A stretch of DNA of 61,197 nt from an uncultured Bacteroidota bacterium (lineage in GTDB: Bacteria > Bacteroidota > Bacteroidia > UKL13-3): the NCBI GenBank assembly GCA_903883965.1, contig CAISCU010000004.1:1-61197 (forward strand). Reading direction: 5' to 3'. A model generated the notes under the pieces. The model was not told the DNA's origin, did not search any database, and worked only from the letters and a program-made list of their open reading frames with translations. Every line of letters starts with the position of its first letter. Positions within the stretch are counted from its first letter, which is position 1. Below, piece after piece: positions 11,980 through 44,571 of the stretch. The position numbers and the translations under genes are program-made.

Positions 11980-12414
11980 ATGTCTCAACAATTGATTCGT
12001 TTTTGGGATCTGCTCAAGTTGAATTTAAAGTTCGCAGTTTGGGCGGCAGTTTTCAATTGTTTTTGGGGCCTAGTTGTGGTGAAATTAGTTTCTATTAAAG
12101 GTTTGCCAAATGGATTCATGGTAGCAGTTGTTTTATCAACTTTTTTAGTTGCCTTCCTCTCTACAATTGGTTACTTTTTATTGAAAAAGTTTTTTACTAG
12201 AGGATTGTTCTTGTATTATTTTTTAGGTACATCTTTTTATATTTTTTGCAATTTTCCTGCTTTTGAATCTCAATTGCCAGATGGCTCACCAATACCCAAT
12301 TATTTTACATTGTTGGTTTTGCCCATGCATGCTATTTGTGCGTTCTTAATGGTGTATAAAATGCCTCAACAGGCTTTAAAGTTTACCAGTTTAAATGCGG
12401 ATAACTCAATTTAA
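11980..12414 (+). CDS. Four-helix membrane protein of unknown function
   Basis: A 144-residue inner-membrane protein with four hydrophobic segments, at about residues 15-38, 44-67, 73-95 and 103-126. I do not recognise a named family with confidence; it resembles the small four-TM DUF proteins common in Bacteroidota. The ATG immediately follows the lipA stop, so it is translated from the lipA transcript. Its last 32 bases overlap the convergent GSCFA gene. Confidence 0.7.
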   Translation: MSQQLIRFWDLLKLNLKFAVWAAVFNCFWGLVVVKLVSIKGLPNGFMVAVVLSTFLVAFLSTIGYFLLKKFFTRGLFLYYFLGTSFYIFCNFPAFESQLPDGSPIPNYFTLLVLPMHAICAFLMVYKMPQQALKFTSLNADNSI

Positions 12415-13327
12415 GTTTAGAGTATACTAGAGCTTTTTTGCTCTCGAAAGCTTGGTGTTCCTTGGTGTGGCTGTGTAAAATTCTGTGATTAATTAATTTG
12501 TAGTAAGCATGAATCTCATCCATGATAGTTTGTGTTTCTGGGTCAATACAATTGCTTTTAAACAAACTAAAAATATAGTCAATGGCTTGTGTGTTTGGAT
12601 GTGATAAGTCCTCATCATAAAACCGATAATCTCTTAATTCGTCTTGTAAAATTTCAAACGCCGGGAAATAATATGACTGCGATGATTTACAAATTTCATC
12701 AGCTAATATTAACAAGTTGGCCTTGCTGATATTGTTTTCGTGAATACCATCTTTGGTATATTTTACAGGACTAACAGAACAAATGAGTTGTATGGTTGGG
12801 TTGCATTGTTTTAATGCGGCTATACATTGATTCCAAATTGGAAGCATTGTTGTATGGCTGCTCATTGATTTAATAAACTTGGTAGATGGAACTTTGTGAC
12901 AATTGGCTACTGTGGTTCCTTCTTCTTTTAAATGGTACACATAACTACTGCCAAATGTAAATACCAAGAAGTTGCAAGTTTGAAGCATTTCTAAATCTTG
13001 CTGCATTTGCAGTTGTATGTTTTCCAACAATTCGGATTGAGACTTTGCCCATACCGAGCCATGGTGCATCCAAGAATACCATGTGTCATTGTGTTCAAAA
13101 ACCAAGTGTTGAGGAAAGTCATTCCCTTTCAAACAAAGCATGATATATTCTGCAATGACATTGGGATGAAAAATGATACCGTTTCCTAAAAAATGAGTAT
13201 GTAATTTGAATTGACTGAGTTTGTCAAAAATATGGTGCGCAAAACAAGAACCTGAAAAAACCACTTTTGAATGGTGGTTGATCAGTTGCGAATTGGGTTC
13301 AAACTGGAAATCAAATTTTAGTTTCAC
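12383..13327 (-). CDS. GSCFA domain protein
   Basis: A 314-residue protein with the defining GSCFA motif at residues 26-30 (VVFSGSCFAHHI), followed by a family-typical TFGSSYVY block and the SVSPVKYTKDGIHENN region; DEDLSHPN near 248-255 supplies a conserved Asp/His. GSCFA domains are SGNH-hydrolase-like and are usually assumed to act on acyl or acetyl esters of glycans, but the substrate is unknown. There is no signal peptide. It starts 4 bases after the TPR gene and is the last of seven closely spaced minus-strand genes beginning with the PqqD-like gene, so it is probably part of that operon, though the family also occurs alone. Confidence 0.85.
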   Translation of the reverse strand: MKLKFDFQFEPNSQLINHHSKVVFSGSCFAHHIFDKLSQFKLHTHFLGNGIIFHPNVIAEYIMLCLKGNDFPQHLVFEHNDTWYSWMHHGSVWAKSQSELLENIQLQMQQDLEMLQTCNFLVFTFGSSYVYHLKEEGTTVANCHKVPSTKFIKSMSSHTTMLPIWNQCIAALKQCNPTIQLICSVSPVKYTKDGIHENNISKANLLILADEICKSSQSYYFPAFEILQDELRDYRFYDEDLSHPNTQAIDYIFSLFKSNCIDPETQTIMDEIHAYYKLINHRILHSHTKEHQAFESKKALVYSKLKLSYPHLNW

Positions 13328-13331
13328 AGCT

Positions 13332-13943
13332 TTATTTGATCATTTTTAACCCAGAGTTGGCAGATTCATCTTCCATGTTAATGAACAGGCATTTTTCAAA
13401 TAAGGCTTTTGCTTCGGTATTGTGTCCTGCATACAAATGAGCCCATGCTGAAAGAATTAAATTGTCATAATTGAACGGATACAAATTGATGTTCTTTTGC
13501 AAATAGACAATTGCTTTTGCATATTCTTTTCTGTTATAGTAAATCAATCCAGTTCTGTAATTCACCAAATTGTTGTTGGGGTCAACTTTTAAAATTTTTA
13601 AATAAGTTTCTAAAACACTATCCCAATTTCCTAAATTAGAAAGTGGGTACACCAATCCTAATTTGGGTTCTATGGCATAAGGCATAATGGCAATTGCTTT
13701 TTCATAAAATTTAATGGAATTGATCATTTCACCTTCGTTGTAGTACAGCCAACCCATTCGCAAATTCATTTCATAATTGTGTTCTTGGTAAACGGCTTGG
13801 AGTTCTTTTCTGGCATTGGAAAAATCGCCTTTCTTTTCTAAGTTATAACTGTTATTAAAGGCAATTGCAATGGCATTGTTTTGGGCAATTAATGCTGTAC
13901 CAAATGCTGCAAATAAGAGTAAAAAGAGGCTTATTTTTTTCAT
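13332..13943 (-). CDS. Secreted tetratricopeptide-repeat protein
   Basis: A 203-residue exported protein. The signal peptide covers residues 1-20 (KKISLFLLLFAAFGTALIAQ). The rest is a chain of about four to five TPR units: NSYNLEKKGDFSNARKEL, LRMGWLYYNEGEMINSIKFY, and later repeats up to about residue 195. TPRs usually mediate protein-protein contacts, here in the periplasm. It lies between the TPR/barrel gene (3-base gap) and the GSCFA gene (4-base gap). Together with the upstream gene it looks like an envelope scaffold pair of the operon; no catalytic function is seen. Confidence 0.8.
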   Translation of the reverse strand: MKKISLFLLLFAAFGTALIAQNNAIAIAFNNSYNLEKKGDFSNARKELQAVYQEHNYEMNLRMGWLYYNEGEMINSIKFYEKAIAIMPYAIEPKLGLVYPLSNLGNWDSVLETYLKILKVDPNNNLVNYRTGLIYYNRKEYAKAIVYLQKNINLYPFNYDNLILSAWAHLYAGHNTEAKALFEKCLFINMEDESANSGLKMIK

Positions 13944-13946
13944 ATT

Positions 13947-15122
13947 TTAATTTTTTAGAGTATAACCGATGATGACAGTTTGAAAGGAATATGCTTGGTT
14001 GATTTCGGAATAATAAACAGGTTCTATATATTTTCTAGCTTTATTTTCGAACTGGTAACAAATATAAAAATCTTTGTTGTTTGCTGTTTTGTAATTGAGC
14101 ATTAAAGAAATTTTGTCTTTGGTTAGGTCGTAATTGTTGTTAACGATAAATCCCTCTTGTTCTATGTAATTGGTTGTATTGGCATAGGAATATGAACCTA
14201 TTAGCCAGGTGTTACTTTTTAATCTAACACTGATACCTGGATTGTAAATGACCGTGTATTGGTTGTCTTGGTTTTGGAGTATGGGATTGAACTGCAATCC
14301 CAATTTGTCGTTTCCTTTAGGGGCATACTTGAGGCTAGCACCAATTTGCCATTGTTGTTTTTTATTTAACCTACCTATAGTAGCATTTACTCCCAAATTG
14401 ACCTTGTTAAATTGCTTCTGAACCGCAATTGCTTCAGTATAATTGGAGATGGTTTGTTGGCTATTTTGTGTATGGTCATCAACCACGCATTGCAAGTAGG
14501 AGAGGCCTAGTTTAAACTGAACTGTTGGGCTTGCTATGATGTTTACCATTCCTAAATATTGGTGTTGAATGACATCATACAAAGTACTTTTTTGGGTGCA
14601 ATAAAAATAACCAAGGTAAGTTTCTATATTTTTATTCATGCTTAATAACAATCCTAAATGCGCATAATACATGTTTTGAATGGAGTCAGTTCTGTTACTC
14701 AATTTACTTCCAGTTTCAACATATATTTTTTGCAAGCGCTTATTAGCAATCCCTAAACTCGGGTTAAAGTAGTTGCTCAAGCCTGTTTGTCCAATTAAAA
14801 TGGCACATGTGCGCATGTTTTGAACGGCCATCAATGAAGAAGGGTCAAATTTAAATGCTTGGTTGTATTGGAAATAGGCATTCTGGTAATTGCCTAAATT
14901 CAAATAAGCATTTCCGAGACTCATTCTTAAACTGTAATAATCAATTTTATCATGAATGGCCAATTTACCCATTGCAATGAGTGCTGCATGGTTTTTACTA
15001 TTTTCGAGAACAGCAATAGAATCAGTCAGTTGTTTAAATGTACCTCTACTTTGTGCCTGTAATTTCAAAGAACAACATACAATACAGGTAATAAAAACAA
15101 TTTGTTTTAGTTGCTGATACAT
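13947..15122 (-). CDS. TPR domain plus C-terminal outer-membrane beta-barrel protein
   Basis: A 391-residue exported protein: signal peptide (1-23), an N-terminal TPR-like region (about 25-105, including LRMSLGNAYLNLGNYQNAYFQYNQAFKF), and a C-terminal ~240 residues of alternating strand pattern (TYLGYFYCTQ, VQFKLGLSYLQ, LGVNATIGRLN, WLIGSYSYANT) ending in an aromatic strand, typical of an outer-membrane barrel. The start overlaps the end of the urea-channel/M23 gene by 16 bases, implying translational coupling. The architecture suggests a periplasmic interaction module anchored in the outer membrane. I do not recognise a named family. Confidence 0.75.
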   Translation of the reverse strand: MYQQLKQIVFITCIVCCSLKLQAQSRGTFKQLTDSIAVLENSKNHAALIAMGKLAIHDKIDYYSLRMSLGNAYLNLGNYQNAYFQYNQAFKFDPSSLMAVQNMRTCAILIGQTGLSNYFNPSLGIANKRLQKIYVETGSKLSNRTDSIQNMYYAHLGLLLSMNKNIETYLGYFYCTQKSTLYDVIQHQYLGMVNIIASPTVQFKLGLSYLQCVVDDHTQNSQQTISNYTEAIAVQKQFNKVNLGVNATIGRLNKKQQWQIGASLKYAPKGNDKLGLQFNPILQNQDNQYTVIYNPGISVRLKSNTWLIGSYSYANTTNYIEQEGFIVNNNYDLTKDKISLMLNYKTANNKDFYICYQFENKARKYIEPVYYSEINQAYSFQTVIIGYTLKN

Positions 15123-17299
15123 GTAGCTGTTAATTGCTGTTTGTTATGGGTAATATGGAATTGTGAGAGTTGACCATTCTCAAATTCAATTTGAAATACC
15201 ATCAAAGCATTTTTACTGAAGAGTTTTCCTAATTCTATGCTGCCTTCCAATTTAATTTTAGGCGATTGTATGTCGTCATAGAAATAGGCATAATTAAGTT
15301 TGCTCTTGGCTTGTAAGTACAAGTAAAATGGGGCTATCCAATCTTGAAAAAATCGCTGAGTTGGCTTGTATATTTCACTAATGTCTAGTGGGTTTTCAAT
15401 ACTCAGATTTGGATAATAACTCAGTAGTATTTGTTGTGTTGCAATGTAAAAATGAAACAGCAAGGAGTTTTTATCGCCATAAAAGGCATTGGCTTCAAAA
15501 ACCAGATTGTCGTTTGTAAAATACAAAAAAGAAGCTGATTTAGGATCATACAAATACCTATTGTTAAAGGCATCAGTATGCGATTCCCAAATTTCAGTAA
15601 GGCCTGTTTGTTCAATTTGCCAAGTGTATTTTTTACCGGGTATAAATGACAATGATTCTTGAAGCAATTTATTAGGAATAGGGTTTTCTACCCAGTCGCC
15701 TTCATTTGGAATACCATTTCTTGTAAATCTAGGGACATCAATGCCCATTTGAACGTAGTTGCTGAGAGGGAAATTGAGTGTTGGCGAGCCAATATATGGT
15801 GTGCTTTGTAGCTGAAAGTGTAAATGGGGTTCAGGAGAACGCCCAGAGTTTCCAATTGCACCAATAGTTTTACCCAATGCAATCCATTCTCCTTCATAAA
15901 CTTTAATGGATCCGGGTTTTAAATGAGAGAGTTTGCTGTACAAATATGGGGCATGCTGAATGATAACCGTATTGCCCCAGTTTTCTGTCAGATTTACTTG
16001 ATTGATACCATTGTCTTTGACATGGTCTATTATTTTTACAACGGTTCCAGCAGCGGGTGCAACAACAGGTAAATTGTAGCAGTAATAATCTTCCACCAAC
16101 ATACCAGGTAAACGGTAGGTCCTGTTTTCGGCATCAGTTACATCAAAATCCCAGGCAAATTTCCAATCTGAGAGATGGGTAATTTTTCCTTCATGACCCT
16201 GAGAAATTCTCATTCTACCAATAATAGGTAAATGAATTTTAAATGCTGAATATCCAGAAAACCGCTTTGATTTATTTTGATAGCTATACAAGTTTTTTTC
16301 TGGTGAGGCAAATTGCTGTGGGGTGAGTTGTAGAAAAACCGCTTTCTCTCTAAAGTATAAAAAGAACAAGAATAAAATAACAAATATATTGAATGGCAAT
16401 GAAAGCAATGGCAATTGAAATACACCTAATATTTTTTCAGAACCAATTCCTATAATAGCAATAGTAGGGGCAATGATCAATGCCAACAGATATGACCACC
16501 TGCTTGGAATGAGGAAAAATCCGCCAAGAGCCATTCCACTCAGTATAAAATTAAAGCCTATAAATCCATAATTGAGGTCATTCATATTGGCGCCAATTAA
16601 TTGGTAGAACACATACCCTGAAATAAAGCTCAATACCGATAATGTAAAAGCAATTCTAGAATGAATGAAAATGGCAATTGAAACCAAAATTCCCGCACCT
16701 AAACTGTACTGAAACAATACGGCACCCAATGACCTAAAATAGACAGCTATTACTGGTGCAATTGGCAATTGTTCAATAGACAAATAGGTGTTGAGTAAGT
16801 GTTCACCTCCAACACGGTACAAGTGGTTGAAAACAAACAATTCATTTAAATTGGGAGCCAAATTACTCAAGCCTGTGGTTGCTAATTTTAGGAGCCAAAC
16901 ACATACCAAAAATGGCAAACTTAAAAAGGGCAGGTTTTTTTTACTAAGCCAATTTTCGAAGGCAATTGTAAACATCAAACACAAGATACTACCTGTTAAC
17001 AATATGAAAATTAAATAGGTGCTCCAAGTAAATGTATGTCCTATGAATAATCCAGTTAAAAGGGCGTTGTAACCCAATGTGCCTGATTTTATTTTAGCTT
17101 GATTGAGCTGAAATAAATAAGCAATGGCATTGGTTAATAAGGTCATTGCAAGGCCACAACTTCCAGCTATGGGGTCTATAAAGCTTGCAATGCCTATGAG
17201 TAAACCAGCTAATTGATTGGTAGAAAGAAATAACTGAGCATAGCTATTTGACAATCCTTGGAAAGACAGACTTGTTATTTGCTTGCTACTTTTAATCAT
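15107..17299 (-). CDS. Urea transporter-like channel fused to M23 metallopeptidase domain
   Basis: A 730-residue fusion. Residues ~20-320 are hydrophobic with about ten membrane segments and resemble the UT/urea transporter family (PF03253): DPIAGSCGLAMTLLTNAIAYLF at the first pore half and GYNALLTGLFIG at 76-87, with a second copy around GFIGFNFILSGMALGG. Residues ~360-515 are a LytM/M23 domain: THLSDWKFAWDFD (H375, D384), IIQH, LSHL (H459) and GRSPEPHLHFQ with the H492-x-H494 pair. The C-terminal ~200 residues are unassigned. The metal ligands look intact, so endopeptidase activity on peptidoglycan is possible. It abuts the decarboxylase gene (0-base gap) and overlaps the barrel gene. No urease genes lie in the window. 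Confidence 0.85.
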   Translation of the reverse strand: MIKSSKQITSLSFQGLSNSYAQLFLSTNQLAGLLIGIASFIDPIAGSCGLAMTLLTNAIAYLFQLNQAKIKSGTLGYNALLTGLFIGHTFTWSTYLIFILLTGSILCLMFTIAFENWLSKKNLPFLSLPFLVCVWLLKLATTGLSNLAPNLNELFVFNHLYRVGGEHLLNTYLSIEQLPIAPVIAVYFRSLGAVLFQYSLGAGILVSIAIFIHSRIAFTLSVLSFISGYVFYQLIGANMNDLNYGFIGFNFILSGMALGGFFLIPSRWSYLLALIIAPTIAIIGIGSEKILGVFQLPLLSLPFNIFVILFLFFLYFREKAVFLQLTPQQFASPEKNLYSYQNKSKRFSGYSAFKIHLPIIGRMRISQGHEGKITHLSDWKFAWDFDVTDAENRTYRLPGMLVEDYYCYNLPVVAPAAGTVVKIIDHVKDNGINQVNLTENWGNTVIIQHAPYLYSKLSHLKPGSIKVYEGEWIALGKTIGAIGNSGRSPEPHLHFQLQSTPYIGSPTLNFPLSNYVQMGIDVPRFTRNGIPNEGDWVENPIPNKLLQESLSFIPGKKYTWQIEQTGLTEIWESHTDAFNNRYLYDPKSASFLYFTNDNLVFEANAFYGDKNSLLFHFYIATQQILLSYYPNLSIENPLDISEIYKPTQRFFQDWIAPFYLYLQAKSKLNYAYFYDDIQSPKIKLEGSIELGKLFSKNALMVFQIEFENGQLSQFHITHNKQQLTATCISN

Positions 17300-18661
17300 T
17301 TATGATAAGGTGAATTCTTTTAAATACGCTGGCATTTCTTCAATGTTGTTGATGTATTCCAAAGTTTCTTTGTTTCTGATTAAATGAACTTTACTATCCA
17401 TATCAATCATGACAACATTTGGTCTCATGGCAATGAATTGCATCCATTGAGTCATGTTGTATGCTCCAACAGAATGTACAACTACATTGTCGCCTTTTTT
17501 CATTGGTGGCAAGGTAATATTTTCTCTGATGACATCTATATTCATACACAAAGGTCCATACACCACACCATCTTCGGTATAATGACTGAATTCTTGTGCT
17601 GGTGAAAGTTTGTGTTCATACCAGAACGAAGTAAACAAAATGTTAACGCCAAAATCCATAATGGTTGCTCTGCGGCCGTCACTCAATCTTTTGTTTGCCA
17701 AAACGGTTCCGCATAAAGAACCAGCATCGTCTATCAATGCTCTGCCTGTTTCTAATATCAATAAGGGCAATTCTTGTTTGCTGTATTCTGCATTTAATAA
17801 GGCACTACAAATGGCTTCAGCATAGTCGTCAAAGCTTGGAGAACTTACATTTCCTTGAAGGTAAGATCCTCTTAATGTGTTCTTAGAAGCAAAGCCACCA
17901 CCTAAATCTATATAAGTAATTTTCTTATTGAATTTTGCATGTATATGGTAGGCCAAATCGGCCAATTTAGAGGCAGCAATGGCATAGGCATTTGCTGTTA
18001 ACATGAAAGTTCCAATATGACAATGCAAGCCCACCAAATCCATTTGGTCGTTTAAAATGATTTTGTTGATGGCATCCCAAGCTTGACCAGTTTCGTAATT
18101 GAAACCAAATCGGTCCCACATTGGGTAAACTCCTGTATCCATATTCACACGAATGGCAACTCTTGGTCTTTTGTTCACTTCTTTGGTGATTTCCATGAGC
18201 CTGTACAATTCGTCTAAATGGTCAATATGAATCAAAGAATTGTGATCAATGGCTAATTTTAAATCATTGTCTGTTTTGTCAGGGCCATTGAAAATGATTT
18301 TATTGCCAGGAACTCCATTTTGAAGCGCTTTGTTGTATTCAAATCCAGAAACAACCTCGGCCCATGAACCTTCTTGGTGAAACACATTACACACCGCATT
18401 GATATAATTGGTTTTGTAGCTCCATGCCATTTGTACCCTGGGGTACCTATTGGTAAAAGCTCTTTTGCAATCTTGGTAGGTTTGGCGAATGGTTCTTTCA
18501 GAAATGACAAATAGGGGTGAACCGTATTGCCCTATGAGTTCTTTTACTGAAACACCATCAATATGGGTTACAGGATTGTATTCAGTTCTTGTTCCAAATT
18601 TATTCATCATGCCGGTGTTTAATTTTTTTACAACCGGTCTTTCGTATCTTAATTTTTCCAT
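17300..18661 (-). CDS. Fold-type III PLP-dependent decarboxylase (Orn/DAP/Arg decarboxylase family 2), not canonical LysA
   Basis: A 453-residue alanine-racemase-fold PLP enzyme. K83 in the SYKTN motif is the Schiff-base Lys; GLHCHIG, YIDLGGGF and LILETGRALID supply the PLP phosphate and pyridine contacts, and a PLCMNIDV segment replaces the substrate Cys-Glu-Ser-Asp motif of DAP decarboxylases. It is therefore a relative of LysA/SpeC-type enzymes with a different specificity pocket; a bona fide lysA is encoded elsewhere in the window at 44572. An extra N-terminal ~35 residues precede the barrel. The gene sits 5 bases after the ATP-grasp gene and directly against the urea-channel/M23 gene. 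The substrate is unknown; a product of, or precursor for, the ATP-grasp ligase is a reasonable inference. Confidence 0.82.
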   Translation of the reverse strand: MEKLRYERPVVKKLNTGMMNKFGTRTEYNPVTHIDGVSVKELIGQYGSPLFVISERTIRQTYQDCKRAFTNRYPRVQMAWSYKTNYINAVCNVFHQEGSWAEVVSGFEYNKALQNGVPGNKIIFNGPDKTDNDLKLAIDHNSLIHIDHLDELYRLMEITKEVNKRPRVAIRVNMDTGVYPMWDRFGFNYETGQAWDAINKIILNDQMDLVGLHCHIGTFMLTANAYAIAASKLADLAYHIHAKFNKKITYIDLGGGFASKNTLRGSYLQGNVSSPSFDDYAEAICSALLNAEYSKQELPLLILETGRALIDDAGSLCGTVLANKRLSDGRRATIMDFGVNILFTSFWYEHKLSPAQEFSHYTEDGVVYGPLCMNIDVIRENITLPPMKKGDNVVVHSVGAYNMTQWMQFIAMRPNVVMIDMDSKVHLIRNKETLEYINNIEEMPAYLKEFTLS

Positions 18662-18666
18662 AAGTT

Positions 18667-19722
18667 TTATGATAGTTCTCCCAATGTGGAGATTTGTTCA
18701 AATTCTTTTAAATCTACAATTAAATCGTATGAGTAACGGACAAACATTTTACCCACTTCATAATTTTTGAATGGTTCTACTGTTTCTCCTAAAGCCATTC
18801 TTACCAATGCCTCCGGATGGTTCTGTCCACAACCTTTTGCCAAATACACCCATGCTGGGAAACGTGGATTTATTTCTAGAAGGTAGTAATCATTTTCGGC
18901 GGTTTTAATAAACTCCAGTTCCATGCCACCTCTCCATTTAGACGATGCAATGAGTTTGTTTGCAATTTGAACCAATTTGTCATCATCTAATGAAATACCC
19001 GCCCAAGCTTTGCCTTTGTCTGTAATGTATAACTTTCTCATTGGAACTGCACCTATGGCATTGCCATTGCCATCACCAATTGCAGTCACATTGACTTCGC
19101 TTCCAAATACATATTGTTGGATAATAATTGGCAATCCCCATTTTGAAGTGAGTTTGTTAAAATAGCTATGAATTTGTTCAATGTTATAAGCAATATATGC
19201 TTCGTAATATTTGCCTTTTACTACTATAGGAAAAGAAAATTCATTCAACAAAGCAGGAATTTCTGCGGTACTAAAAATCATTTTGCTATAAGGCACTTTG
19301 ATGCCATGTTTCAAACCAAATTCAAATAAATTTGATTTGTGTCGTTCGTCAAATTGGTCTTGAGTAGGCAAAAACATTTTAATGCCAAATTCTGCTAACA
19401 ATCTATTTTCAAGTTTCATGAAATTGCTTAGCTCAGCATCAAAATTAGGGATGATGACAGATATGTTTTCGCATTGATGAATGTATGAAATTCGCTCTAT
19501 GAGTGCATCGGTACCAGCAGAAGGAAAAGGCACCTGATAAGATTTGTCGACCAAATTGTGCATGTACAAACCTGGTTCAAGTGCTTCATAAGAAAGCCCA
19601 ATGATTCTGACATCAAAAAGAGTGCTTTCTTTCAATGCCCTAATAACAGGTATTCCAGGGCCTGGACTATCTATATTGTTCAAGCCTGAAACTGCAATGG
19701 TTAGCTGTTTTTTTGCTGTCAT
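18667..19722 (-). CDS. ATP-grasp carboxylate-amine ligase-like enzyme
   Basis: A 351-residue ATP-grasp protein of the CarB/biotin-carboxylase-like branch. The N-terminal Rossmann-like part begins VSGLNNIDSPGPGIPVIRAL (residues ~13-32). The ATP-binding Lys is in FPIVVKGKYYEAY, the hinge stretch is IIIQQYVFGSEVNV, and the metal ligands lie in MELEFIK and LLEINPRFPAW. Such enzymes join a carboxylate to an amine or thiol through an acyl phosphate. It starts 2 bases after the PqqD-like gene and ends 5 bases before the PLP decarboxylase, so the three look like a pathway unit. The substrates are unknown; a peptide or amino-acid conjugate is inferred from the neighbours. Confidence 0.82.
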   Translation of the reverse strand: MTAKKQLTIAVSGLNNIDSPGPGIPVIRALKESTLFDVRIIGLSYEALEPGLYMHNLVDKSYQVPFPSAGTDALIERISYIHQCENISVIIPNFDAELSNFMKLENRLLAEFGIKMFLPTQDQFDERHKSNLFEFGLKHGIKVPYSKMIFSTAEIPALLNEFSFPIVVKGKYYEAYIAYNIEQIHSYFNKLTSKWGLPIIIQQYVFGSEVNVTAIGDGNGNAIGAVPMRKLYITDKGKAWAGISLDDDKLVQIANKLIASSKWRGGMELEFIKTAENDYYLLEINPRFPAWVYLAKGCGQNHPEALVRMALGETVEPFKNYEVGKMFVRYSYDLIVDLKEFEQISTLGELS

Positions 19723-19724
19723 GA

Positions 19725-19967
19725 TTATTCTTCTGCTATTTGTGAATTTTGAAGCAGAGTAGAGAAGTCATAAAAATCTTTTTCAAATGTTGACTCATCT
19801 ACCGCATACCGACTCAAGATGGTTTGTTTGATTTCCTCTTTGTTTTTATCTTCTTTCAATAAATGGATGATTTCAAAACCAATTGGATTGGTTGAGAATG
19901 AGTCTCCAGTTGTTGGATTGAAAATAAATCCAGATTCACTAATGGCGATGTTTTTTTTAATTTTCAT
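19725..19967 (-). CDS. PqqD-like protein (RiPP recognition element fold)
   Basis: An 80-residue protein with the PqqD pattern: an N-terminal strand with SESGFIFNPTTGDSFSTN (residues 10-27), a helix with NPIGFEIIHLL, then EEIKQTILSRY and a final helix with DFYDFSTLLQ. PqqD domains bind leader peptides of ribosomal natural products, but stand-alone relatives also occur with no known peptide. It is the first of seven minus-strand genes and ends 2 bases before the ATP-grasp gene. No radical-SAM gene and no obvious precursor-peptide frame is visible beside it. An inverted repeat lies about 20 bases upstream of its ATG. Confidence 0.75.
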   Translation of the reverse strand: MKIKKNIAISESGFIFNPTTGDSFSTNPIGFEIIHLLKEDKNKEEIKQTILSRYAVDESTFEKDFYDFSTLLQNSQIAEE

Positions 19968-20043: not shown

Positions 20044-20619
20044 TTAAGGAATTAATTCGTCTAAAGGAGTTCTAGGCTTTATTTTGAGGGCTTTGAATTC
20101 ACTGACACTCATTCCTGTTACTTGTTTAAATTGGTTTGATAAGTGCTGTACACTGCTATATCCCATTTGGTATGAAATTTCACTCAAAGTCATTTCGTTG
20201 TAGCTCAAGAGTTCTTTCACGCGTTCTAGTTTTACAAGAATAATGTATTTCTCAATGGTATGGCCTGTTGTATCGCTAAAGTGCTTGCTAATGTAGGCGT
20301 ATGATTTGCCAATTTTATCGCTTAAATAATCAGAGTTTCTAATGATGGTATTGAGGTTATTCCCAAAATAGATCATTTCTAAAACGGCCAATTTAATCTG
20401 CTCAATCAATTGTTGCTCTTTGTCTATCAAAATTTCAAAACCCGCTTGTTGAATAGCGAGCTTTAATTCGTTTTTTTGAGCGGGTTCAATTGGTTTTTGA
20501 AGTTCTATACTACCTAAATTTACTTTGTTAAATGGTAAGCGCATATCTACCAAAATCTGCTGCACAGTTTGTAGACAGCGTTTGCTGACCATGTTTTTTA
20601 TGTAAATTGTTTGAGGCAT
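20044..20619 (-). CDS. AraC-family regulator with degenerate heavy-metal-associated N-terminal domain
   Basis: A 191-residue transcription factor. The C-terminal ~100 residues form a double HTH of AraC type (LSDKIGKSYAYISKHF and LSEISYQMGYSSVQHLSNQFKQVTGMSVSEFK). The N-terminal ~75 residues (IYIKNMVSKRCLQTVQQIL onwards, with VNLGSIEL) match the HMA-like domain found on a Bacteroidota AraC subfamily. The usual metal motif MVCxxC is MVSKRC here, so one of the two Cys ligands is replaced by Ser. It lies 76 bases upstream of the PqqD-like gene on the same strand and is divergent from DUF3467, so it could control either. Confidence 0.85.
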   Translation of the reverse strand: MPQTIYIKNMVSKRCLQTVQQILVDMRLPFNKVNLGSIELQKPIEPAQKNELKLAIQQAGFEILIDKEQQLIEQIKLAVLEMIYFGNNLNTIIRNSDYLSDKIGKSYAYISKHFSDTTGHTIEKYIILVKLERVKELLSYNEMTLSEISYQMGYSSVQHLSNQFKQVTGMSVSEFKALKIKPRTPLDELIP

Positions 20620-22781: not shown

Positions 22782-23681
22782 GTGCATCTCGATCCAGAAA
22801 CATACCACTATATATTTGAAAAATACCTGCGGGTAGAGCTGGGTCAATCTGAATTGGAAATGTTTGAGGAAAAGCTCAATCAAGATCCAGAATTCAAAAA
22901 ACAATTTCAGCAATACAAACTTCACAGAACAGAAATACTTAGAAGAGAATTGGCCGCTTATGAAGCGCCAATGATAGCTACTCAATCTCCCAAAAATATG
23001 GGTTGGCTGTATTTAATGGTTTCAATTTTAGGCATTGTGTTGGTATTTGATTACTTTATCAATACCAAATACAACAATTCTTTAAACCCTCCTAAAAGCA
23101 TCATCAGTAGATCTATTGGTTTGTTTAAACCCAATAAAAAAGCAGTTCAATCAGACAAGATAGCCAAATTGGATTCCTATGCTCAAACAAGTGGAAATTC
23201 TGATTTATTACTTCCCTCAGATTCAAGTGCCGACAATCGTTTGATGGAACAAGATTCATTCAGTATCTCCGAACAACAGCACATAGAAAAACTTCCTCTT
23301 CAAATAGAAGAAGAGGTGTTTGTAGCAGATAGCAATTTTGAATGTTTCTCCTATACCGTCTGGAACGAATTATTGGAATCGGTCTCTTACGAGGTAGATT
23401 CAGTACTTTCAGATTCTATCATGATGACGCGCTCTTTGTTGTTATTATCCAAAAAGAAACAAACAAAATCACAACCCGTTTTGGTTGAATACTGGCAATC
23501 AGCCAATCAGTTCAAGGGCTATGCGTTTAATGAGCATAAACTTGTACTGTATGGTTTATCCACTCAAACTAATTTTTACCTACTATTTGATGAGGAAAAA
23601 TCGGCCTATTTTATAATTCAAAATGCACGTATTTTTCAATTGACTCAAAACAACCATTTACACCGAATACCACTACAGTGA
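22782..23681 (+). CDS. Anti-sigma-factor-like single-pass membrane protein
   Basis: A 299-residue protein starting with GTG at 22782. Residues 1-60 form a charged helical domain (FEKYLRVELGQSELEMFEEKLNQD) like the N-termini of Bacteroidota anti-sigma factors, then a membrane segment at 74-90, then a ~200-residue periplasmic part, which is Ser/Asp-rich with no recognised domain. No ECF sigma gene lies nearby, so the anti-sigma role is inferred from layout only. A -7-like sequence (CAATTTTG, one mismatch) ends 5 bases before the GTG, suggesting a leaderless transcript. The stop overlaps the dapF GTG (GTGA). Confidence 0.6.
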   Translation: MHLDPETYHYIFEKYLRVELGQSELEMFEEKLNQDPEFKKQFQQYKLHRTEILRRELAAYEAPMIATQSPKNMGWLYLMVSILGIVLVFDYFINTKYNNSLNPPKSIISRSIGLFKPNKKAVQSDKIAKLDSYAQTSGNSDLLLPSDSSADNRLMEQDSFSISEQQHIEKLPLQIEEEVFVADSNFECFSYTVWNELLESVSYEVDSVLSDSIMMTRSLLLLSKKKQTKSQPVLVEYWQSANQFKGYAFNEHKLVLYGLSTQTNFYLLFDEEKSAYFIIQNARIFQLTQNNHLHRIPLQ

Positions 23682-24475
23682 ACCAAATTTTTTATAAATA
23701 CCAAGGAACCGGAAATGATTTTATTTTAATTGATGACAGGGACAAAACATTTCCTGCTTCTGATCAAAAACTAATTGCACACTTGTGCCACAGAAGGTAT
23801 GGAATAGGAGCAGATGGGCTCATTTTACTTCAATCAGATGAGCAATCAGATTTTTACATGCAATATTTTAACAGTGATGGCTCAGAGAGTACCATGTGTG
23901 GTAATGGAGGAAGGTGCATTGTTAAATTTGCACATGACTTACAAATTGTAACAGAAAGTATGCAATTTAGAGCCATAGATGGCATGCATGAAAGTCATAT
24001 CAATGGCAACGATTTGGTTGCCCTTCAAATGAAAGATGTAACAACTGTTTTAGAAGAACCCAATGGCGTTTTTATATTAAACACAGGTTCGCCACATTAT
24101 GTACAATTTATCAATGACAACATTGCACAAATAGACATTGTACAAATGGCCAGAGCAATCAGGTATTCAGATAGGTTTGCTGCAGAAGGAATCAATGTGA
24201 ATTTTGTTCAAGTAATGCCCGACAGTAGTTTGGCAGTTAGAACCTATGAAAGGGGAGTAGAGGATGAAACCTACAGTTGTGGTACAGGAGTTACCGCATC
24301 CGCAATTGCATTTGCCTCAATTCAAGACCGAATTTTACCCAGTTATACAGTAAGGTTGGGTACCCCTGGTGGTGCACTTCGAGTAACATTTGAAAAAACT
24401 GAAAACGCCTCATATAAAGCAATTTGGCTAGAAGGGCCTGCAAAATTTGTTTACCAAGGAGTTTATACACTTTAA
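23678..24475 (+). CDS. dapF: Diaminopimelate epimerase
   Basis: A 265-residue cytosolic racemase converting LL- to meso-diaminopimelate for lysine and peptidoglycan. Both catalytic cysteines are present: C74 in MCGNGGRC and C201 in YSCGTGVTA, with the YQGTGNDF N-terminus, the GIGADGL motif and the ERGVEDET block. The start is a GTG whose last two bases overlap the preceding stop (GTGA at 23678-23681), so it is translationally coupled to the anti-sigma-like gene. dapA and lysA are elsewhere in the window on their own. Confidence 0.96.
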   Translation: MNQIFYKYQGTGNDFILIDDRDKTFPASDQKLIAHLCHRRYGIGADGLILLQSDEQSDFYMQYFNSDGSESTMCGNGGRCIVKFAHDLQIVTESMQFRAIDGMHESHINGNDLVALQMKDVTTVLEEPNGVFILNTGSPHYVQFINDNIAQIDIVQMARAIRYSDRFAAEGINVNFVQVMPDSSLAVRTYERGVEDETYSCGTGVTASAIAFASIQDRILPSYTVRLGTPGGALRVTFEKTENASYKAIWLEGPAKFVYQGVYTL

Positions 24476-35281: not shown

Positions 35282-35433
35282 ACAGCTGTTTGACATCCAA
35301 CGTGCTTTAAAAAAAAACTTAAAAATTGAAATGTGTATTAGTTGTTTGAATCTATGCAATTTCAAAATCTAACTTGCGCACAATTAAGACGTTAAAATAT
35401 TAAATCAAACCATACAATTATACCATGTTTACC

Positions 35434-38400
35434 ATGAAATCTAGTTTTTTAAAATTTTTGTTTCTTGTTATTTCAGTAATAACAATGAATCAATTGAGCG
35501 CTCAAACAATTTTGAGTTCCTATGACTTTAATCCAATCACAGCTACTCAGACATTTGGCCCAAGTCCATATGCAGGTTCTGCTGCTGCCAATGTAACAGC
35601 TGGTGGTTTAACCAGGGGGCCTGGAGTTTTAACAAGCGGAACACCTGCCGCAAGAGGTTGGGGAGGGGTTAGTTGGCAAGCAACAAGTGGTGCCAATGCA
35701 GTAACGGCCAATCAATTTTTTACATTTACCGTGAAAGCCAACGCCGGTTACAAATTAAGCATTGACTCATTAAGGTTTCCTTATAGGAGATCTGCATCAG
35801 GGCCAGCATCTGGAATGTTAGATTATTCGTTAAATGGAACAACTTTTACAACAGCTGCAACACTTTCATTCACAAACACTACTTCTGGAGGTGCAATTCT
35901 AAAGGTTGATTTAAGTGCCATTGCAGCGTTAAAAAATGTACCTTCCTCTGCTACCATTACGTTCAGAATTGCAGGATATGGTGGAACAGCATCAGCAGGA
36001 ACTTTTTATTGCTATGATGTGGTAAATTCAACTGCTCCAGACTTGTGTGTAGTGGGTAGTGTTACTCCCTCTAGCGGTCCTTTGGTAGTAGCTACTGGTA
36101 CATTAAAAGAATTTGCAAGTCCAGGAATTGGCTTGCCATCAAATGAGCAAACAATAACAGTTTCCGGTTCAAATTTAACCAATGATTTGGTTGTAAATGC
36201 ACCTACAGGATATGAAGTTTCATTGTCATCAGGTGCTGGATTTGCCTCATCAATTACCATTACACCTAGTGTTGGAGTTGTTGGCAATACCACCATTTAT
36301 GTCAGGTATAACCCTACAGCATTAACTGATCAGTCAACAGTTGTGTTAACAGCAACGAGTTCAGGCTCTCCAACTCAAAGTATTGACTGTTTGGGTTCAA
36401 TATATAATTTAAACTTCAATGACATTGCCATCATTGGTATGAACACTTCTTCAAAGAATGTCATTTCATTTGTTGTTGTCAATACCATTCCAGCCAATAC
36501 CAAAATTAAGTTTACAGACAATGGTTACAGTGACCCTACAACTCAAATGCTAACTGAGGGGACATTGATTTATACTGCACCAACATCCCTTACTTCGGGA
36601 ACTGTTGTTACTTGGACAAATGGAATGACCATAACTGGAACAGGATGGAACTCAGCAGCCCCTTCTAATTTTACATTGGCTGTTAATGGAGATCAATTAT
36701 TTGCATACCAAGGAACATGGGGAATTAGTGGTGGTAACACCAGCTTATTGGGTGGAATGATGACAGGAGGTACTTGGGTAACAACAGGTACAATTACCAA
36801 CGTCACTACCAATTCTTATTTGCCAGCGGCTTTAACTGTTGGTGTAAATGCCATGAGTGTCTTTAATCCAAATGCGTATTACCTTAACAATACAGCCAAT
36901 ACAACAATCAGTCAGTTGAATTTACCTGCCAGAACAAAAGATTCAACCAATTGGAATACCAGTTCAACCCAAATTTATCCAACACCATCATGGGTATTCA
37001 ATATCATTGCTGAGGAACCTACTGGCCAAGCTTATTTTCAAAACACAACCAATATTTCAACCAACAGCATGACCTTAAATTTTGCTGGAGGAAATGGTGG
37101 AAATTATTTAGTAGTTGTTAAAAATGGTTCTCCTGTAACAGGTATTCCTATTGATGCTACCACTTATACAGCCGATACCAATTTTAGTTTTGGTTCAAGT
37201 ATTGCAGTAGGTGAATATGTTGTATACAATGGTTCAAGTGCTGTAAATACTGTATCAATTTCAGGATTGACATTTGGTACCAATTATTATTATGCAATTT
37301 TCCCTTACAATGGAACAGGAAATAAGTCAAATTATTTGACTGATAATCCAGGTAATGGAGTGGATATGACCAATGGTATACCAAACTCAACTTCATCAGA
37401 CATTATTGCTGATACCAGCTTTTATGAGCCTGAAAATATTGCTTATCAAAATTTCCAAGACACTACAGATGTAACGTATTTGAATTCAATTGAAGTGGCA
37501 AGATTTCAAATTAGAGATGGCGGTTTTGGAGCAGATATGGATACTGCTTCAACGGTATTAACGAGCATTGGATTTGCTGTTCAAGGTAATCAGTCGTTGA
37601 GTAGATTGGCGTTGTACAATGGCATTACTGAAATTGCTGATCTACCGGTATCAGATACACTCATTAATTTTACCAATTTGAGTTTCTATACCCATGACAA
37701 TACCATTGAAAATTTGAGTATAAGGGCAACCTTTAAATCAAAAGTTACAGACAATGCTCAATTTGGCTTCACCATCAGAAGTGCAGCCAATTCAGCTACT
37801 GGATCTTCATTTTACTTATATGATGCCGGAGCTGCAGCTACTTCATTATTAGGAGATAAAAATAGAATTGAAGTTTCATCTATTCAACTCAGGTTTATAC
37901 AACAACCAACCAAAACTGTTACTAATTATCCAATTAGCCCAAGTATTGTAGTTGCAGCTGTAGACAACCTGAATAATATAGATTTAGATTATGTAACTGA
38001 TATGACTTTGACTTCATCTGTTCAGGTGTCAAATAATGCAACCTTGGTGGTAACTCCAATTTTAGGTGTTGGAACTTTTTCAAATGTGATGTATGCTGCT
38101 ACGCAAACAGGTATTACCATTGAAGTGAGTTCAGGTACTCTAACAAGCACAGGAATGAGTGCAAGTTTTGATGTAATTAAAGCATTAGAAGTTGGTGATT
38201 TGTCAATAATGGGTTACAGTGGAACCAATCCAGATAAATTCTCTTTTATGTTACATTCAGATATACCTGCTGGTTCTGTCATTACTTTTACAGATAATGC
38301 GTTCAATGGTACATCTTTAACTAGCAACGAAGGTGTTGTAGTTTGGACCTCTCCAAACAGGGTATTGCCTTCAGGTACAGTTGTAACCATATCAATTCCG

Positions 38401-40425
38401 TTAACCAATACTGTAGTTGTAGACAGTTCTAATGGTTTGCCAAATGGTACTGTAACCATGACATCAAACTTTGCATTGGCAACCGCAGGTGACCAATTGT
38501 TGTGTTACAGAGGAACATCATTTGCACCAATTTTCTTAACTGCATTTTCATCTACTCCATGGGTAAATGTTGGAGCAACAATCAATACAAATAACTCAGT
38601 ACTCCCAACTGGTTTGGTTGCTGGTATTACAGCCTCTAATACTGGAGTAACATTTACGAATGGGTATTATAATAACACCACAACAGGTTCTAACTATTTA
38701 TTAAGGTCTTTAATTAATAACAAAGATAATTGGGTAACTAGTTCATCATTACAAGCGGCTTATCCAAAATATGTGACTACATTTTCAACCAAAACACAAA
38801 TCTCAGCGAATGCCTCTATTACTGAATTGGCAATTTTAAATACAGATACCTTTGCATTGGGTAATTTTAAGTTGACATTGAATGGAGTAGCTTCAGGAAC
38901 AGGTGTGTTAAGAGGAAGTTCATTGGCCAGTTTAACTGTTACAGGTGCAGGAAACCATGGGGTGCTTAACTTTGATCAATCTATCAATGGAAGTACCAAT
39001 ACCATCAAAGATTTTGTGTTAACAAGTGGCGGAGTGAGTATAGGCAATTTGCTCAATAATACCGGAACTTTAACCCTAACTGCAGGTAATTTAGTAATTG
39101 ATGCTGCTGCCGTATTAAATTTCTCAGGTACAACAATAAACAGAACTTCTGGTGTAATAGATTTCAAAGTTTTAAACGCGGAATTGAAATTTAAGAACAC
39201 CTCAGCATTGGTATTACCGAGTGGAATGTTTGCTGGGGCAGTGCCAATTTTTACAGTTGAAGGTGCTCAAATTACATTGGGTTCTGCATTGACTGTTTCT
39301 AACAAGCTTAATTTAAATGGAGGAAACTTAATAGGAAGTGCTTCCAATACCGTATCTGTAACAAACAATCAATCGGATGCTATTTACAGAACCAGTGGGT
39401 ATATCAATGCGCCTTTAATTAGAACAGTATCTATGATGTTAACCAATGGTCCGAGTTATCTTTTCCCAGTTGGAAAAAATATTTACAATGCATTTGAGTT
39501 GGTTGAGCCGAATACCAATGGTTTTGGTGATTTTGATATGAAAGTGAATTTAATTGATACCAATACCGGAGCTACAACAGGTACTGGTATGAACACAATT
39601 AACTCAAATTTTATTTGGGAAGCTCAAATTCTAACCGCAAACAATAGTTTTGTGAGTGCAAAAGTTAAATTGTCAGACACAAGTATTTATGCAGGAGCTA
39701 ATGATGCTATTGCATTCAGTCTATTGTCAAATGGTGCTTTTGATAACATTGATGCCAGTATTCCAACTGCTAACGATTTATTGACAAATAACCAATTGAC
39801 CTCACTTGGCTATTTTGCTTTGGGAGTGAAAACTTCTGCTACTCCTCAGTTGGCGGCCATTGATTTAAAAGCATATATTCAAGGGTTGTATTTAGGAAAT
39901 GGAACAATGGCTGCTGCTTTGTTTAATTCAGATCCAACATTGTCCGATACCATTGCTGATTCTATAGAAGTAGAATTGCATGAAGCATTTGGTTCTTATT
40001 TAACTATATATAGCCAAAAAGCGGTACTTAATACGAGCGGAGTTTGTAATTTAACTTTCCCTTCTGCAGTTGTTGGAAATAGCTACTATATTGTAGTGAA
40101 ACATAGAAATTCTATTCCTGTATGGAGTGCTACACCTATTACCTTAACTTTTACCAATTCAATCAATTTTACTGTTAATGCCACTGATGCATATGGAGCT
40201 AATTTAGCTGAATTAGAAACTGGTATTTTTGGCATGTATTCTGGAGATATCAACCAAGATGGTTTCATAGATGGTAACGATTTCATTGATGTAGACAATG
40301 ACAATACTAACTTTGCATCAGGTTATTTGGTAACTGATGTAAATGGTGACGCATTTGTGGATGGAAACGATTTTATTGTAATTGACAATAACAATACTTT
40401 GTTTATTGGAGTTGCAAATCCTTAA
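35434..40425 (+). CDS. Giant secreted protein with duplicated tail-like modules and dockerin-like C-terminus
   Basis: A 1663-residue exported protein with a signal peptide ending around residue 21 (LSAQ); an ATG three codons earlier is equally in frame. Beta-rich modules include an anchor-type N-terminal domain (~25-210), an Ig-like domain (~215-325), a lamin-tail-like module starting IAIIGMNTSSKNVISFVVV (~330-530) and a second copy starting LSIMGYSGTNPDKFSFMLH (~920-1085), each with FTDN, VxWT and a GDQLxxYxG block. The last ~65 residues hold two EF-hand-like loops, GDINQDGFIDGNDF and DVNGDAFVDGNDF, with DNDNT and DNNNT spacers, ending VANP. No classical T9SS sorting domain is seen. It is probably a surface adhesin or scaffold; Thr, Ser and Asn dominate. 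Confidence 0.8.
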   Translation: MKSSFLKFLFLVISVITMNQLSAQTILSSYDFNPITATQTFGPSPYAGSAAANVTAGGLTRGPGVLTSGTPAARGWGGVSWQATSGANAVTANQFFTFTVKANAGYKLSIDSLRFPYRRSASGPASGMLDYSLNGTTFTTAATLSFTNTTSGGAILKVDLSAIAALKNVPSSATITFRIAGYGGTASAGTFYCYDVVNSTAPDLCVVGSVTPSSGPLVVATGTLKEFASPGIGLPSNEQTITVSGSNLTNDLVVNAPTGYEVSLSSGAGFASSITITPSVGVVGNTTIYVRYNPTALTDQSTVVLTATSSGSPTQSIDCLGSIYNLNFNDIAIIGMNTSSKNVISFVVVNTIPANTKIKFTDNGYSDPTTQMLTEGTLIYTAPTSLTSGTVVTWTNGMTITGTGWNSAAPSNFTLAVNGDQLFAYQGTWGISGGNTSLLGGMMTGGTWVTTGTITNVTTNSYLPAALTVGVNAMSVFNPNAYYLNNTANTTISQLNLPARTKDSTNWNTSSTQIYPTPSWVFNIIAEEPTGQAYFQNTTNISTNSMTLNFAGGNGGNYLVVVKNGSPVTGIPIDATTYTADTNFSFGSSIAVGEYVVYNGSSAVNTVSISGLTFGTNYYYAIFPYNGTGNKSNYLTDNPGNGVDMTNGIPNSTSSDIIADTSFYEPENIAYQNFQDTTDVTYLNSIEVARFQIRDGGFGADMDTASTVLTSIGFAVQGNQSLSRLALYNGITEIADLPVSDTLINFTNLSFYTHDNTIENLSIRATFKSKVTDNAQFGFTIRSAANSATGSSFYLYDAGAAATSLLGDKNRIEVSSIQLRFIQQPTKTVTNYPISPSIVVAAVDNLNNIDLDYVTDMTLTSSVQVSNNATLVVTPILGVGTFSNVMYAATQTGITIEVSSGTLTSTGMSASFDVIKALEVGDLSIMGYSGTNPDKFSFMLHSDIPAGSVITFTDNAFNGTSLTSNEGVVVWTSPNRVLPSGTVVTISIPLTNTVVVDSSNGLPNGTVTMTSNFALATAGDQLLCYRGTSFAPIFLTAFSSTPWVNVGATINTNNSVLPTGLVAGITASNTGVTFTNGYYNNTTTGSNYLLRSLINNKDNWVTSSSLQAAYPKYVTTFSTKTQISANASITELAILNTDTFALGNFKLTLNGVASGTGVLRGSSLASLTVTGAGNHGVLNFDQSINGSTNTIKDFVLTSGGVSIGNLLNNTGTLTLTAGNLVIDAAAVLNFSGTTINRTSGVIDFKVLNAELKFKNTSALVLPSGMFAGAVPIFTVEGAQITLGSALTVSNKLNLNGGNLIGSASNTVSVTNNQSDAIYRTSGYINAPLIRTVSMMLTNGPSYLFPVGKNIYNAFELVEPNTNGFGDFDMKVNLIDTNTGATTGTGMNTINSNFIWEAQILTANNSFVSAKVKLSDTSIYAGANDAIAFSLLSNGAFDNIDASIPTANDLLTNNQLTSLGYFALGVKTSATPQLAAIDLKAYIQGLYLGNGTMAAALFNSDPTLSDTIADSIEVELHEAFGSYLTIYSQKAVLNTSGVCNLTFPSAVVGNSYYIVVKHRNSIPVWSATPITLTFTNSINFTVNATDAYGANLAELETGIFGMYSGDINQDGFIDGNDFIDVDNDNTNFASGYLVTDVNGDAFVDGNDFIVIDNNNTLFIGVANP

Positions 40426-40439
40426 TCGTAAGTTATTTA

Positions 40440-40478
40440 TTCATAAAAAAAGGGGCCTTGAGCCCCTTTTTTTATGAA
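40440..40478. terminator. Strong bidirectional terminator after the giant secreted protein gene
   Basis: TTCAT + A-run + GGGGC (to 40456), loop CTTGA, GCCCC + T-run + ATGAA. The convergent transporter gene stops at 40472-40474, inside the right arm. Confidence 0.93.
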
Positions 40479-41236
40479 TCTTTTTGCGCTTCTTCCATCA
40501 TAGCATGAGCCAATTCTTTGCCCAAATAGGCATCAATTAAATTGTGTATGAAATAAAGTACTGGAGTGAGTATAACAGCAACTGTAAATTTATACATGTA
40601 ATTGACAATGCCAATTCCCAATACCAGTTTGATGTCCCAGCCTGCACCTATGTAAAATGCAATAATTAATACAACAAAACTGTCAATCAATTGAGAAACC
40701 AGTGTAGAACCTGTAGACCTTAACCAAAGCATTTTGTTTCCAGTTTTATTTTTTAGAAAATGAAATACAGAAACATCAATAAACTGACCCACTAAAAAGG
40801 CTACCAATGAGCCTATAATTATCCATAAGCCTTGACCAAAAATTTGGCTGTAAGCCTGCTGCATATTCACTTTTCCTTCACTTGTTTCTTTAATTATCCA
40901 GAAATCGGCTGGTTCCAATTGAATGGCAAAAAATAAAGTTAAGAAGGTATAGACAATGAGCCCTATGGCAATATAAGTGAATAATCTCACCCCACTTTTA
41001 CCAAAATACTCATTGATAATATCGGTCATGATAAATACCATTGGCCATAATATTACACCAGCTGTCATATTAAATGAAAATGAATTTCCTAGCAGATCAA
41101 TAGATAGGGGAGACATACCAATTGATTTTTCTAATGAAAATATTTTTACGCCAATCATTTCAGCAATGATTGCATTGGCAATGAAAAACGCTCCAAGAGC
41201 CAAAAATAATTTATTGCGTTTAGGTTCTTTGCTCAT
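40472..41236 (-). CDS. yhhQ: Queuosine precursor transporter, YhhQ family
   Basis: A 254-residue inner-membrane protein of the YhhQ/VUT family (PF02592), which imports deazaguanine queuosine precursors such as preQ0/preQ1. About six membrane segments are visible: ~10-28, 48-72, 80-104, 135-158, 180-203 and 215-240. The family signature ITDIINEYFGKSGVRLF (71-87) and LVAFLVGQFIDVSVFHFLK (~139-157) are recognisable, as is LVSQLIDSF. It starts one base after the stop of the DDAH-like hydrolase gene and so lies in the same operon. The last codons overlap a bidirectional terminator. Confidence 0.88.
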   Translation of the reverse strand: MSKEPKRNKLFLALGAFFIANAIIAEMIGVKIFSLEKSIGMSPLSIDLLGNSFSFNMTAGVILWPMVFIMTDIINEYFGKSGVRLFTYIAIGLIVYTFLTLFFAIQLEPADFWIIKETSEGKVNMQQAYSQIFGQGLWIIIGSLVAFLVGQFIDVSVFHFLKNKTGNKMLWLRSTGSTLVSQLIDSFVVLIIAFYIGAGWDIKLVLGIGIVNYMYKFTVAVILTPVLYFIHNLIDAYLGKELAHAMMEEAQKDS

Positions 41237-44566: not shown

Positions 44567-44571
44567 CGGCT

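Follow-up and report, generated by a model that had tools for sequence, protein, structure and literature searches.

In a 61,197-nucleotide stretch of DNA from an uncultured Bacteroidota bacterium (contig CAISCU010000004.1 of assembly GCA_903883965.1; "the window" denotes this whole stretch), six consecutive minus-strand genes form a cassette encoding, in order, a PqqD-like protein, an ATP-grasp ligase, a pyridoxal phosphate (PLP)-dependent decarboxylase, a urea transporter (UT)-type channel fused to an M23 peptidase (UT-M23), a TPR protein with a predicted outer-membrane barrel, and a second TPR protein (Table 1). This block has a near-invariant order and no assigned function, and it occurs across Bacteroidota and close relatives. 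We tentatively propose that a recognition element of the kind used for ribosomally synthesized and post-translationally modified peptides (RiPPs) recognizes a leader-like tag on a biosynthetic enzyme, and that this RiPP-recognition element (RRE) organizes a line of ATP-grasp ligase, decarboxylase and M23 peptidase that feeds a repurposed urea-transporter channel. An initial annotation, made from the sequence alone, had also suggested biosynthesis and export. This remains the most economical reading, although the envelope location then given to the M23 domain and the membership of a GSCFA-family gene are not supported.

The seven packed minus-strand genes of that annotation match our open reading frame (ORF) list for the window exactly in coordinates and in gaps (2, 5, 0, -16, 3 and 4 bases). 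The families named (PqqD, ATP-grasp, decarboxylase, UT and M23, TPR, GSCFA) agree with Pfam and NCBIfam, and the TPR/barrel assignment is upheld by an AlphaFold2 (AF2) model. Treating all seven genes as one unit was correct for six of them, which co-occur in order in distant genomes; a lack of co-occurrence elsewhere, named in that annotation as a refuting result, was clearly not observed. Among the window and 24 neighbourhoods from relatives, the GSCFA gene is restricted to the window and loci L032 and L033, which represent the window's genus. Thus, the conserved unit is six genes rather than seven, and GSCFA is a genus-level add-on outside the system.

Some 130 sampled loci, whose flanks are unrelated, keep the order PqqD, ATP-grasp, decarboxylase, UT-M23, TPR-barrel, TPR. 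That these six genes recur with their order unchanged, in distant genomes and beside different neighbors, is far beyond chance. In the window and the 24 neighbourhoods the order is maintained with one exception (L046, where the TPR gene lies upstream), and flanking genes vary beyond close relatives; no other gene is common across the flanks of these, the contig-scan and the phylum-sample loci. Counts among these relatives are 23/23 for PqqD, 25/25 for the decarboxylase, 25/25 for UT-M23, 23/23 for the barrel and 21/22 for the TPR gene. A contig scan yielded at least 555 confirmed relatives. Its best 80 loci, each counted only where the contig extends far enough, contain PqqD in 74/75, the decarboxylase in 76/77, UT in 68/69, M23 in 65/66, the barrel in 55/56 and the downstream TPR gene in 49/56. 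The relative and contig-scan sets are not independent, and the same genomes appear in both (e.g., L060/L037, L077/L046, L081/L054 and L083/L055).

A full or contig-cut UT-M23 protein is present in 26 of 58 related genomes. In a phylum-wide sample, 27 of 296 genomes (nine per cent) were found to have the ligase. The 26 loci examined from this sample are similar in gene content; the decarboxylase and UT-M23 genes adjoin the ligase in every locus retrieved, and the sole real gap for PqqD beside the ligase is L159, where the gene sits one ORF further upstream. A class-wide sample has the cassette in 73 of 394 genomes (19 per cent), and the class of genome G062 has it in just 1 of 98. Among the carriers in the contig scan are Petrimonas sp. 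IBARAKI, Algoriphagus sp. CAU 1675 and Cyclobacterium sp. SYSU L10401, together with Chlorobi, Ignavibacteria and Kapaibacterium records.

Two minor observations concern these loci. Unrelated genes are inserted between the decarboxylase and UT-M23 genes in four of them (L092:12946-15024, L093:12461-13369, L112:12564-13139 and L132:7209-8381); judged by eye, the inserts encode a leucine-rich-repeat-like secreted protein, an initiation-factor-2B-like protein, an ECF (extracytoplasmic function) sigma factor and an ATPase. In addition, the metagenome-assembled carriers L067, L070, L071 and L078 are titled Bifidobacterium breve, Chryseobacterium gleum or Sphingobacterium thalpophilum, and at least the Bifidobacterium breve title looks wrong.

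Judged by its sequence, the PqqD-like protein is an RRE. Its only sequence match in the PDB is TbiB1, an RRE from a lasso-peptide pathway. In RRE-leader structures, the leader Tyr lies by Asp70 (LppB numbering), the leader Pro lies by Asn33/Val35, and Phe74 separates the two pockets (PMC13381572). The equivalent residues here, mapped by motif position and not from a solved complex, are D64, N27/I29 and F68, of which N27 is present in 166/166 aligned rows, D64 in 143/168 and F68 in 157/168. The TbiB1 match and the retained contact residues bear out the earlier view of PqqD as a peptide-recognition fold.

RREs are known to recognize the motif YxxP (PMC12710340), and leaders follow a [Y/F]xxPx[hydrophobic] pattern (PMC13381572, PMC12710340). 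The cassette decarboxylase carries about 30 residues ahead of its alignment to N-citrylornithine decarboxylase (the 7kh2 match starts at residue 31), and this tail has the consensus K..[Y/F]E[R/K]PxI.....G..NKFG. Among non-redundant rows, P9 is found in 168/168, K21 in 168/168 and G23 in 167/168. The N-terminal pattern [Y/F]xxPx-hydrophobic...G occurs in 117 of 129 cassette decarboxylases, in none of 1064 flanking ORFs and in no other cassette protein, and the housekeeping LysA encoded in the window has no such tail. The likely ligand of the PqqD-like protein is the decarboxylase's own N-terminal tail. From the structural contact we expected, before counting, that loss of the Tyr hydroxyl would free Asp64 to change. 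Asp64 is present in 143 of 147 rows with a Tyr6 tail and in 0 of 21 with a Phe6 tail, where Tyr (17), Ser (3) or His (1) takes its place.

TbiB1, FusB1 and LppB, discrete RREs from lasso peptide and LPP pathways with YxxP leaders, share with the cassette protein the PqqD fold, the Asn/Asp/Phe contacts and a [Y/F]xxPx[hydrophobic] partner motif, here encoded by the adjacent gene. In the cassette, however, the motif resides at the N-terminus of a PLP decarboxylase rather than on a precursor peptide, and B2 protease and cyclase are absent. A standard RiPP cluster likewise shares the RRE but has its own precursor gene, and no conserved ORF of 15-75 amino acids was found within 1.6 kb upstream of the cassette, the only region searched. 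The only large cluster of short ORFs there is an out-of-frame shadow of PqqD. A carrier-protein role for PqqD, with a LysW-like C-terminal Glu, was ruled out because the PqqD C-terminus is not conserved.

The chief rival to our proposal is that the tail is itself the modified precursor. The decarboxylase N-terminus would then comprise a leader (YxxPxI) followed by a short modified segment (NKFG...), the ATP-grasp enzyme would modify this segment, M23 would excise it, and a small peptide would be exported. The leader motif and the invariant K21 and G23 do lie outside the known enzyme fold, an RRE and a peptidase are both in the cassette, and no conserved separate precursor ORF lies in the upstream region searched. 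Borosins, in which precursor and enzyme form one chain, offer an architectural parallel. Nevertheless, each enzyme molecule would be spent on a single product, which is wasteful, and peptides would have to pass a narrow UT-type pore. We consider this scenario unlikely.

The next rival, uptake, turns on the channel and the outer-membrane components. The AF2 model of the UT-M23 protein (pLDDT, the predicted local distance difference test score, 86.8) contains a complete UT fold (VIA-align Z about 38 over about 314 residues to UT-B). Like SLC14/UT channels such as dvUT and UT-B, the domain mostly retains the Phe slot and one Gln site. Residues were mapped to dvUT by sequence alignment, and Q24 and E187 are the urea-binding polar residues of dvUT. 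The Gln24 equivalent is retained in 133 of 152 proteins, whereas E187 is replaced by A193, in a column that holds Ala, Ser or another non-acid and never Glu or Gln in the residues listed for 151 of 152. The cassette domain also differs from SLC14/UT channels in its M23 fusion and in the lack of urease in the genomes searched: none scored above the cut-off in the 58 related genomes, and urea catabolism was rejected on this basis. Because the urea-site acid is lost and urease is absent, the membrane channel of the initial annotation stands as a fold, but a plain urea channel is not supported. The arginase/agmatinase family occurs in 58/58 related genomes, so a correlation with urea export is uninformative.

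For the TPR-barrel protein, the AF2 model (pLDDT 86) has a barrel with Z about 20 to FadL, CymA and OmpG and a TPR part with Z about 15 to TPR modules; the predicted architecture comprises a signal peptide, roughly three TPRs and a porin-type barrel of about 14 strands. The downstream TPR gene is conserved in most loci. In the deepest branch, a TPR gene is followed by a separate barrel-sized gene, and two of these match the barrel profile. The constant feature therefore seems to be a periplasmic TPR plus an outer-membrane barrel.

If the cassette served uptake and assimilation, the TPR-porin and the channel would admit a small amide or urea-like nutrient to be processed by a cytoplasmic M23 domain, the ligase and the decarboxylase. 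UT channels are passive and could work in either direction, the outer barrel resembles the uptake porins FadL and CymA, and Gln24 is mostly retained. Against this stand the lack of urease in the related genomes and of catabolic genes recurring beside the cassette, and catabolism offers no obvious role for an RRE or for a ligase that consumes ATP. We rate uptake as slightly less probable again than the modified-precursor scheme.

The decarboxylase itself informs a third alternative. Its closest solved chain is 7kh2, an N-citrylornithine decarboxylase (6e-59), yet it scores 242 bits against the FslC model (cut-off 500) and 225 bits against the lysA model (cut-off 298), and CMN replaces the CES substrate motif. 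A true LysA is encoded in the window (44554-45783, plus strand, 389 bits; 25 per cent identity to the cassette enzyme), so the cassette enzyme is not the lysine-pathway enzyme. A role as diaminopimelate (DAP) decarboxylase was rejected on these three grounds: the sub-threshold score, the lost CES motif and the separate LysA. DapF is also encoded in the window, at 23678-24475 on the plus strand.

In FigC, the catalytic Cys354 is followed by Met355, and His357, Arg387 and Asn389 contact citrate (PMC7857480). Mapped by alignment, the Cys-Met pair is retained in the cassette enzyme as C372 and M373, whereas the citrate contacts become I375, Q405 and M407. An N-citrylornithine decarboxylase (FslC/FigC) was rejected because the model score is below cut-off and these contacts are replaced. 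The specificity helix (T344, W347, Y348) lacks the Asp found in ornithine/arginine enzymes and also the Arg found in DAP decarboxylase. Taken together, these residues suggest a substrate that is a conjugated, non-citryl amino acid. Clade 2 of the decarboxylases with an alanine racemase (AR) fold, apart from DAPDC and D-ODC, likely serves specialized metabolism (PMC7857480). With its members FigC/FslC, SbnH, AcsE, MccE and BtrK, the cassette enzyme shares the fold, the PLP Lys and a catalytic Cys followed by Met. Like the FigC/FslC relatives it has no acidic residue to bind a free side-chain amine; unlike them, it has replaced citrate-binding residues, a 30-residue leader-like tail and an ATP-grasp partner instead of a synthetase for siderophores made independently of nonribosomal peptide synthetases (NIS).

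Synthesis of a siderophore or metallophore akin to rhizoferrin or staphyloferrin B might be read from the 7kh2 match and from flanks that in some loci encode Spy/heavy-metal-resistance proteins or AraC regulators with a heavy-metal-associated (HMA) domain. However, an NIS synthetase is not among the conserved or recurring neighboring genes, the citrate contacts are replaced as described above, and a siderophore would probably not get through a UT pore. We regard this explanation as improbable.

Catalytic residues are conserved in the remaining two enzymes as well. E283 and N285, within the EINPRFPAW motif of the ATP-grasp ligase, are invariant in the ligase alignment. The M23 domain of the AF2 model compares with LytM, LasA and DipM at Z 13-14. 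H375, D384 and H459 are present in 152/152 proteins, and the HxH motif (H492, H494) is present in every untruncated UT-M23 protein. The His-to-Asp spacing exceeds that of LytM, as it does in LasA-type enzymes, which the structural matches include. The C-terminal beta-rich domain (540-730) was not detected in L160 and L163.

The termini of UT-B are cytoplasmic, and the loop charges of the cassette protein alternate in an N-in/C-in pattern, with a net +3.1 at the C-terminal junction. Given this homology and charge pattern, the M23 domain is predicted to be cytoplasmic and hence not a periplasmic peptidoglycan hydrolase, and its assignment as an envelope peptidoglycan peptidase is not supported. 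In L140:6944-9198, from a single-contig genome, the UT and M23 halves are two ORFs that overlap by 4 bases at the domain junction, and the M23 half has no signal peptide or membrane helix; this one case is either a natural split or possibly a frameshift. Peptidoglycan remodelling, in which M23 would act on the wall and the other enzymes would modify wall peptide, can appeal to the fact that most M23 domains whose zinc site is intact hydrolyse the wall, but the predicted topology and the L140 ORF make it very improbable.

We return to the proposal that the cassette is a self-contained, regulated unit for RRE-scaffolded synthesis of a small amide-type metabolite that is exported through the channel, a possibility that we hold with some reserve. 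The cytoplasmic PqqD-like RRE would bind the YxxPxI tail of the decarboxylase and so join decarboxylase and ligase. The ligase would join an amino acid in amide linkage to a partner, either a small acid or a tail residue such as the invariant Lys21, and the decarboxylase would strip the alpha-carboxylate from the conjugate. M23, at the cytoplasmic end of the channel, would cut the conjugate at the channel mouth, and a small, probably neutral product would diffuse out through the UT-type channel and then the TPR-tethered outer-membrane porin. Here we infer the RRE-tail binding, the order of the chemistry, the product and the outward direction.

Several points weigh against this scheme. A urea-type pore is narrow and passive, which limits product size and leaves direction unfixed, and in the UT domain one polar site and most of the hydrophobic residues of the slot are still present. 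Rather than binding the RRE, the tail could fold back on the decarboxylase itself. When the tail is left out of the tree, the Tyr6/Asp64 pairing involves four changes of residue 6 and three of Asp64, even with added loci. With only three to four changes, the swap is consistent with binding but not statistically independent, and it cannot reach significance.

The system matches no kind that was tested, as at least one defining feature failed for LysA, FslC, a urea channel, a wall hydrolase, an NIS siderophore cluster and a standard RiPP cluster. The newness applies to the whole, each part coming from a known family, and the open-access papers searched gave no description of this combination and none that has both PqqD and a urea transporter. 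The carrier-based ATP-grasp pathways LysW/LysX/LysK and BtrI/BtrJ/BtrK use ATP-grasp loading, a PLP step and, in the LysW route, hydrolase release. The cassette shares the logic of these pathways but has no carrier protein bearing a conserved C-terminal Glu or phosphopantetheine site. If our proposal is correct, the cassette would represent a class of metabolite synthesis and export that depends on an RRE, has not been described before and is widespread in Bacteroidota. The role of RREs would then extend beyond guiding precursor peptides, a zinc peptidase fold traditionally linked to the cell wall would act at a channel mouth on the cytoplasmic side, and genes in many Bacteroidota genomes that would be labelled urea transporter or DAP decarboxylase would be misnamed.

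Table 1. Cassette genes, their parts and adjoining genes in the window
Feature	Position	Strand	Support or remark
PqqD-like discrete RRE, 80 aa	19725..19967	-	Pfam PF05402 7e-8; nearest solved chain TbiB1 5v1u 9e-8
PqqD-like residues equivalent to leader contacts	N27 19887-19889, D64 19776-19778, F68 19764-19766	-	
ATP-grasp ligase, PRK12767/CPSase-like, PylC-like N domain	18667..19722	-	weak Pfam; NCBIfam PRK12767 4e-26
PLP-dependent AR-fold decarboxylase, PLP Lys83, catalytic Cys372	17300..18661	-	Pfam Orn/DAP/Arg decarboxylase 2e-30
Decarboxylase leader-like N-terminal tail, residues 1-30	18572..18661	-	
Tail sites	YERPVV 18629-18646, K21 18599-18601, G23 18593-18595	-	
UT-M23 fusion ORF	15107..17299	-	Pfam UT 2e-53 and M23 5e-14, one protein
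SLC14/UT channel domain, residues 1-345	16265..17299	-	Z 38 to UT-B
M23 zinc-peptidase domain, residues 352-530, predicted cytoplasmic	15710..16246	-	Pfam 5e-14; H375, D384, H459, H492, H494
C-terminal beta-rich domain of UT-M23 protein, residues 540-730	15110..15682	-	AF2 model, pLDDT about 90
TPR-barrel protein: predicted signal peptide, ~3 TPRs (25-126), ~14-strand porin-type outer-membrane barrel (127-391)	13947..15122	-	AF2
Periplasmic TPR protein, signal peptide	13332..13943	-	Pfam
GSCFA-family protein, outside conserved cassette	12383..13327	-	Pfam 1e-74
AraC-type regulator gene, degenerate HMA-like N-terminus, 76 bp upstream of cassette	20044..20619	-	probable regulator

The genes that neighbor the cassette are mostly regulators and unrelated genes, with no recurring pathway genes among them. 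An AraC homologue lies upstream in 7 of 22 relatives and in 18 of 63 contig-scan loci, and it is the upstream neighbor in 22 of 126 loci; in the window, the AraC-family gene may be co-transcribed with the cassette. Other upstream neighbors are response regulators, LytTR proteins, histidine kinases, and Spy/heavy-metal-resistance proteins accompanied by an ECF sigma factor. The cassette is probably expressed conditionally, and perhaps metal or envelope stress is the inducing condition. A sigma-70 promoter scan was uninformative, scoring below the shuffled mean, no Rfam riboswitch was found near the cassette in the window or six loci, and PADLOC defence models matched 0 families for all seven proteins.

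Some flanks have a recurring layout. In L040, L041, L043, L045 and L048, genes for an ECF sigma factor, a short putative anti-sigma protein and a Spy/CpxP-like periplasmic protein are directly upstream of PqqD. In L064, L066, L068, L077 and L084, an ORF of 229-234 aa follows the barrel gene and one of 730-745 aa precedes PqqD; in L077 these encode a LytTR-type response regulator and a hybrid histidine kinase, respectively, and at least in L077 the TPR gene has an upstream position. Elsewhere in the window, an arginine dihydrolase/dimethylargininase-like gene lies beside a queuosine-precursor transporter gene (41238-42113 and 40472-41236, minus strand), and a 1666-aa ORF occupies 35425-40425 on the plus strand.

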